Assembly: GCA_947474435.1 (NCBI GenBank)
Contig: CANJII010000004.1
Location: forward strand, 62,001-126,000
Source: Chitinophagaceae bacterium
GTDB lineage: Bacteria; Bacteroidota; Bacteroidia; Chitinophagales; UBA10324
Reading direction: 5' to 3'
Length of the DNA stretch: 64,000 bases
Position 1 is the stretch's first letter. Every line of letters begins with the position of its first letter. The translations under genes and the position numbers were made by a program. The notes beneath the pieces were generated by a model. That model saw nothing but the letters and a program-made list of their open reading frames with translations. It was not told where the DNA came from and searched no databases. Shown here one piece after another: positions 52,341 to 53,042 of this stretch.

Positions 52341-53042
52341 TTATTTTTTTGTTTCACCAAAATAAAATGGTTTGATGTAGTTGGGTTCGAAATAAGCCAC
52401 ATCAACAAAATTTTTTTCATTGAATTTTTTTATGGCAGTTGATTGTAAATATTTGGCTGATGATTTAAAGCCGGTATGATATTCATGTTTTATACTGAAT
52501 AAAAAATCTTTTATTTTCTCAGCACCGTTTCCAACAAAAACAATTGGTGAATCAATTGAATTGATGATGGAAAGAAATTCATCATTCAAAATTGCAGAAC
52601 GACTGCAGACTATTGTTTCAGATTTATCATTCCATATTCCAAAATAAATTTCATCCCGCCGTGCATCAAACGCAGCGCAAATTATTCCTGTGTATTTTTT
52701 TTCTTCTGCAAATCCTGTTGCCAATGCCTGCAATGAATCAATTGCTATTAATGGAAGTTGTGCGCCAAAACAAATTCCTTTTGCGGCGCTAACTCCAATT
52801 CGTAAACCAGTGTATGAACCAGGGCCCGCACTCACAACAACTGCATCAATAGTTTCATTGTCACTTTGAGCTTGTCGAAAAGTTAAATCTGATTCTTTCA
52901 TCACTTCATCAACAAACACTGTGATGAGCGTTGCGTGTTGCTGTCCCTCATCGTTTTCACGAATTGCAATAATGTTTTTTTCATTAGCTGTTGCAACCGA
53001 ACAAGCTGATGCTGCAGTTTCAATTAAAAGAAAATTCGGCAT
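52341..53042 (-). CDS. tsaB: tRNA threonylcarbamoyladenosine biosynthesis protein TsaB
   Basis: A 233-residue TsaB: LLIETAASACSVA, an ATPase-like N-terminus, and VVVSAGPGSYTGLRIGVSAAKGICFG, the family signature. It supports TsaD in making the t6A base of ANN-reading tRNAs. Between MKESDLTF and ETIDAV lies RQAQSDN, which the E. coli protein lacks; it derives from an in-frame DNA element at 52861-52883. Its ATG overlaps the stop of the M28 peptidase gene by one base (TGATG). Confidence 0.92.
   Translation of the reverse strand: MPNFLLIETAASACSVATANEKNIIAIRENDEGQQHATLITVFVDEVMKESDLTFRQAQSDNETIDAVVVSAGPGSYTGLRIGVSAAKGICFGAQLPLIAIDSLQALATGFAEEKKYTGIICAAFDARRDEIYFGIWNDKSETIVCSRSAILNDEFLSIINSIDSPIVFVGNGAEKIKDFLFSIKHEYHTGFKSSAKYLQSTAIKKFNEKNFVDVAYFEPNYIKPFYFGETKK
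52861..52883. repeat. In-frame short repeat element (CTTTGAGCTTGTCGAAAAG) inside tsaB
   Basis: The sequence TTTGAGCTTGTCGAAAAG, or TTTTCGACAAGCTCAAA on the coding strand, resembles a short partly palindromic element that I recall as widely dispersed in bacterial genomes, read here as FRQAQSDN. It adds about seven residues to a loop compared with E. coli TsaB. Confidence 0.55.

Follow-up and report, generated by a model that had tools for sequence, protein, structure and literature searches.

Has a short repeat element become part of the TsaB protein at this locus, and if so, what kind of element is it and how did it come to lie there? The initial annotation had proposed that the word FRQAQSDN in this protein stems from a dispersed repeat inserted in frame. 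We therefore analysed the host gene, the distribution of the repeat and its orthologous sites in related genomes.

The tsaB gene contains an in-frame palindromic element

The tsaB gene occupies positions 52341..53042 on the minus strand of the window, the whole stretch of 64,000 nt that was analysed. Its ORF of 233 codons is assigned to TsaB by NCBIfam TIGR03725 (144 bits versus a cut-off of 69.3; 6.2e-42) and also matches TsaB/YeaZ structures in the PDB. A hairpin-shaped element of 25 bp, the sole copy within the window, lies on the minus strand of this gene at 52859..52883 and reads ACTT TTCGACAAGCTCA AAGT GACA on the coding strand. The 5' arm ACTT (52880..52883) is complementary to the 3' arm AAGT (52863..52866), the two arms flank the conserved core TTCGACAAGCTCA (52867..52879), and the 3' arm is followed by the unpaired tag GACA (52859..52862; TGTC on the opposite strand), all on the minus strand. 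The core matches the repeat exactly, all four arm bases are complementary and the TGACA tag is perfect, while the pair adjoining the core, usually C-G, is replaced by T-A, as seen in 2 of the 148 genus copies. Its initial placement at 52861-52883 includes both arms and the core but only half of the four-base tag, the remaining two bases of which extend the element to 52859. In the tsaB frame, the minus strand reads ACT TTT CGA CAA GCT CAA AGT GAC AAT, encoding TFRQAQSDN.

The element is a dispersed repeat with a fixed core and covarying arms

The 3.5-Mb genome to which the window belongs contains 31 copies of the 13-base core TTCGACARGCTCA, versus 0 matches for a reversed-pattern control and a chance expectation of ~0.2 per genome (uniform bases, both strands). 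Across the genus set of six congeners (G000–G005, with G000 being the window genome), the core count is 4–66 per genome and the controls give 0. At least one core copy is present in 160 of 297 genomes of the phylum, most of the genomes counted having few or zero copies. The genome-wide count that the initial annotation called for thus supports its reading of the FRQAQSDN word as a genuine repeat copy, further reinforced by the perfect arms and tag in tsaB.

These counts bear on the alternative that the TsaB loop evolved, by chance, a sequence equal to the repeat. Chance matches do occur among the ~150 copies. The copy in ileS, considered as an insertion, was ruled out as such, since the length of the protein is unchanged and its E-L-V-E residues are homologous in relatives, and it is probably a chance match; the copy in a purM-like gene (L269) may be a second one. 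However, the core is far more frequent than expected, and the tsaB copy combines it with four complementary arm bases, the full tag and an exact seven-codon length difference, which makes chance an exceedingly improbable origin of the tsaB word.

The genome-wide consensus is RNNC TTCGACARGCTCA GNNT GACA, in which the N bases of the 3' arm complement those of the 5' arm; the core is fixed, whereas the arms are variable yet complementary. In the six congeners, each of the two inner variable arm positions forms a Watson-Crick pair in 136 of 148 copies, versus means of 39.7 and 59.1 (maxima 55 and 81) in shuffle controls, and all four pair types are present at one variable arm position. This covariation also holds in a wide set of 181 copies at loci in other Bacteroidota and in many phyla, including Eremiobacterota, Calditrichota, Neomarinimicrobiota and Nitrospirota. 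In both the genus and the wide sets, the GACA/TGTC tag is kept in more than 90% of copies at each position. The bases outside the arm are mixed, with no CCA consensus. The first stem pair is A-T or G.T and the second is any of T-A, C-G and G-C; the stem comprises 5 bp of Watson-Crick pairs, followed by two mismatches (G.A and A.G) and a single G-C pair that encloses the 5-base loop CTTGT. Copies also lie close to one another, and among the 30 pairs at most 120 bp apart the inverted arrangement is the commonest (+- 21, -+ 5, ++ 2, -- 2).

Folded as DNA, the isolated hairpin reaches -0.7 to -1.9 kcal/mol, which is not better than its shuffles and rules out a strong RNA hairpin as the function of the element. 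Given this weak folding, the covariation suggests recognition of a transient hairpin rather than a stable RNA structure. Rfam gave no match to the element, and an exact-string literature search for the core returned no relevant paper.

Seven codons are present or absent among TsaB orthologues

When 30 TsaB proteins are aligned, 27 show a clean seven-residue gap opposite RQAQSDN. The protein and codon alignments place the seven extra codons best at 52857..52877 on the minus strand, give or take a few bases. They are present in G000, G005 and G001, and absent, with a seven-codon gap, from G002, G003 and G004, as well as from all 24 more distant relatives examined; a common loop length with unrelated codons was not seen in this alignment. 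Consistent with the earlier statement that E. coli TsaB is about seven residues shorter, phmmer searches against solved TsaB/YeaZ structures gave a 7-residue gap in the Vibrio and Salmonella alignments, and the E. coli chains match the same range. The description of FRQAQSDN as a 21-bp insert has to be amended, as these residues require 24 bases; the gain of seven codons stands, and corresponds to RQAQSDN.

The insert peptides are FRQAQSDNE in G000, FRQAQSDSE in G005 and FRQTKNEHE in G001. The residues FRQAQSD are identical in G000 and G005 despite three synonymous codon changes, a pattern that fits shared descent together with selection on the peptide. By comparison, the G001 insert is too decayed for its derivation from the element to be more than uncertain.

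On the congener tree, the distribution of the insert is patchy, costing three gains, or one gain plus two to three losses. Such a pattern would also arise if the same TsaB loop were a hot spot, hit independently in G000, G005 and G001. The perfect copy in G000 next to decayed copies in G005 and G001 is in line with repeated insertion, as is a glycosyltransferase loop whose hits differ in orientation between species. Yet G000 and G005 share the position, the orientation and the unusual T-A closing pair of the element, and the divergence of the insert codons (4 of 7 the same between the two species) is near the gene-wide value (114 of 178), as shared descent predicts. Independent insertion is thus unlikely, though it retains some weight, and one shared gain is tentatively favoured, at least for G000 and G005.

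Taken together, the tsaB word is very probably a copy of a small TGTC-tagged hairpin element of the REP/RPE type that landed in frame in a TsaB loop in an ancestor of part of the genus, the resulting 21-bp, seven-residue gain being tolerated and the peptide being kept in two species, drifted in a third and absent in three. The element would have inserted between the helix and the IDA/INA beta strand, where an addition without a stop in the tsaB frame would lengthen the loop, presumably with neutral consequences for TsaB. The gene thereby illustrates cleanly, in nature, how a core tRNA-modification protein can acquire a peptide from a selfish repeat, with orthologues that carry or lack the insert in one genus. 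That selfish palindromes become parts of proteins is known but poorly understood, and tsaB is a clear case.

Copies in other genes and intergenic sites

Of the 151 genus copies, 52 overlap an ORF that is 150 codons or longer. Four of the six reading frames through the element are free of stops, and the TGA-containing frames are nearly absent from the genic copies (1 of 52), as expected. In CtaA, the element encodes CHPELVEG in G000, forms a tandem double in G002 and is decayed in G004 and G005, with nothing at this site in G001 and G003. The G002 gene (L240) carries a tandem 21-bp duplication of the element, CHPELVEGHPELVER. The glycosyltransferase loop (L234 versus L226 and L216) reads LRQAQD in G000 and G005 and, from the opposite orientation, VTLSLSK in G002, indicating separate hits at one permissive loop. 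In addition, LRQAQ or LRQAH is found in four Pfam-confirmed T9SS C-terminal sorting domains and in several similar ones, and PurL of a Flavobacterium MAG (L178:1678-5466), a further core enzyme, contains the element in frame, as TLRQAQGD, just before the glutaminase domain.

Filled and empty sites also occur between genes, at grpE-dnaJ and ridA-recX. The arms may be built from the target at insertion; orthologous intergenic copies retain the same arms. At ridA-recX of G005 (L342), the intergenic copy is split by ~24 extra bases within the core.

Recurrence of the element in signal peptides

In eight different exported proteins (L004, L013, L016, L023, L076, L273, L292 and L305), the opposite strand of the element encodes VTLSLSK, or a close variant, within the signal peptide, as judged by eye from the sequence. 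The hosts are a VWA protein, an amidohydrolase, an S8 peptidase, a DUF4271 protein, a GH2-type hydrolase, two sortilin/BNR proteins and a LolA-like protein. In seven of them LSLSK precedes the cleavage motif as LSLSK-x-x-A↓Q, with one residue more in L292. An origin of these copies as simple 21-bp additions is unsupported, as the proteins are 0 to ~+5 residues longer than their orthologues; the copies may represent insertion or replacement, which are indistinguishable by length. Outside the genus, where 27 of 189 copies lie in long ORFs, no enrichment in signal peptides was seen among these 27.

In the VWA gene, five species (L214, L237, L228, L229 and L227) share the same signal-peptide codons, CTG AGC TTG TCG AAG, whereas the remainder of the gene has drifted strongly at synonymous positions, with identity of six-fold codons in only 11 of 73 columns. 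This conservation would be expected if the element were kept, also within genes, for a function at the DNA or RNA level, such as an mRNA hairpin or a protein-binding site. Against such a function, the DNA of the amidohydrolase copy decays among orthologues, as it does in tsaB and ctaA, the hairpin is weak, and few or no copies are present in most genomes of the phylum; we consider it improbable as an account of the element. Somewhat less doubtful, though still tentative, is the idea that a single palindrome has repeatedly provided parts of proteins, with its reading frame setting the niche. The TTCGACAAG strand would supply LRQAQ-D to hydrophilic loops (TsaB, the glycosyltransferase and the T9SS sorting domains), and the other strand would supply VTLSLSK three to four residues before the cleavage site, with the element held at the DNA level in at least one signal peptide. 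Taken alone, the tsaB case is one more protein-coding palindrome, and the wider pattern is more interesting. The signal-peptide series is accordingly the more attractive lead, as well as a tractable system for asking how repeats move and become protein.

Comparison with known repeats and possible mode of mobility

REPs with a CGTC or TGTC tag and without a linked transposase were described by Di Nocera et al. 2013 (PMC3733652) from five phyla, Bacteroidetes among them. According to the same study (PMC3733652), these repeats have the tag CGTC (or TGTC/CCTC), a stem of 8–9 bp with A-T as the first and second pairs, a loop of 4–5 bases and a 3-base unpaired tail, mostly CCA; inverted dimers are frequent, Rickettsia RPE-4 and RPE-6 are included, and the intragenic hosts comprise tRNA pseudouridine synthase genes. 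Our element resembles them as a short dispersed palindrome with an unpaired TGTC tag at one end, an A-T first pair, alternative complementary stem residues, in-frame intragenic copies and no linked transposase at two Y1 loci of the window genome. It likewise forms inverted dimers, mainly of one polarity in strand order (+-). By comparison, its Watson-Crick stem is 5 bp long instead of an uninterrupted 8–9 bp, its second pair is not mainly A-T, and the CCA tail is absent. The element thus works like the CGTC REP superfamily and probably belongs near it as a variant; it may be identical to a family listed in PMC3733652. The same core recurs unaltered in many phyla, even though this superfamily has no known dedicated transposase.

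A second parallel is provided by the RPEs: they form inserts within conserved proteins of Rickettsia, and one such protein retained its activity (PMC2229807). Similar to RPEs, our element is a palindrome that lies in the reading frame of conserved protein genes, other orthologues of which lack it (tsaB, ctaA and the glycosyltransferase loop). It differs in phylum, sequence and size, with 25 bp and ~7 residues versus 105–146 bp (PMC2229807). The products of RPE hosts stay functional or expressed (PMC2229807, PMC3733652). The insert in a tRNA-modification gene, which the initial annotation had called notable, is real but has precedent: REPs and RPEs inserted in frame have been published for conserved genes, tRNA pseudouridine synthase genes among them (PMC3733652, PMC2229807).

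The label "mobile" given to the element is supported only indirectly. We infer mobility from the presence and absence of copies at orthologous sites, the opposite orientations at the glycosyltransferase loop and the decay in orthologues; transposition itself was unobserved, and a linked transposase was not found. The element may have spread by transposition via a single-stranded hairpin intermediate that a trans-acting enzyme recognises. For this role, our best guess, held with less than even confidence, is a Y1/RAYT-like enzyme. In this respect the element is like GTAG REPs, small hairpin repeats whose presumed trans-acting mobiliser is a Y1 tyrosine transposase (RAYT), but its tag is TGTC and not GTAG, and the Y1 transposase genes of the window genome are flanked by other repeats. 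PF01797 has three matches in this genome, of which the two stronger Y1 transposase loci were read. The element flanks neither gene, in departure from the RAYT-type arrangement, and the genome's own Y1 transposases were rejected as carriers on the evidence of these two loci. At the first locus (L062:1891-2030), the transposase gene is followed by other small palindromes, TTGTCCC..GGGACAA, which may be its own REPs. At the second (L063), the transposase gene lies among longer repeated blocks (AATCATAGTTCAGACAATTTGAAAAGTTAAGTTTGTGAGCGCGGGAAAACC).
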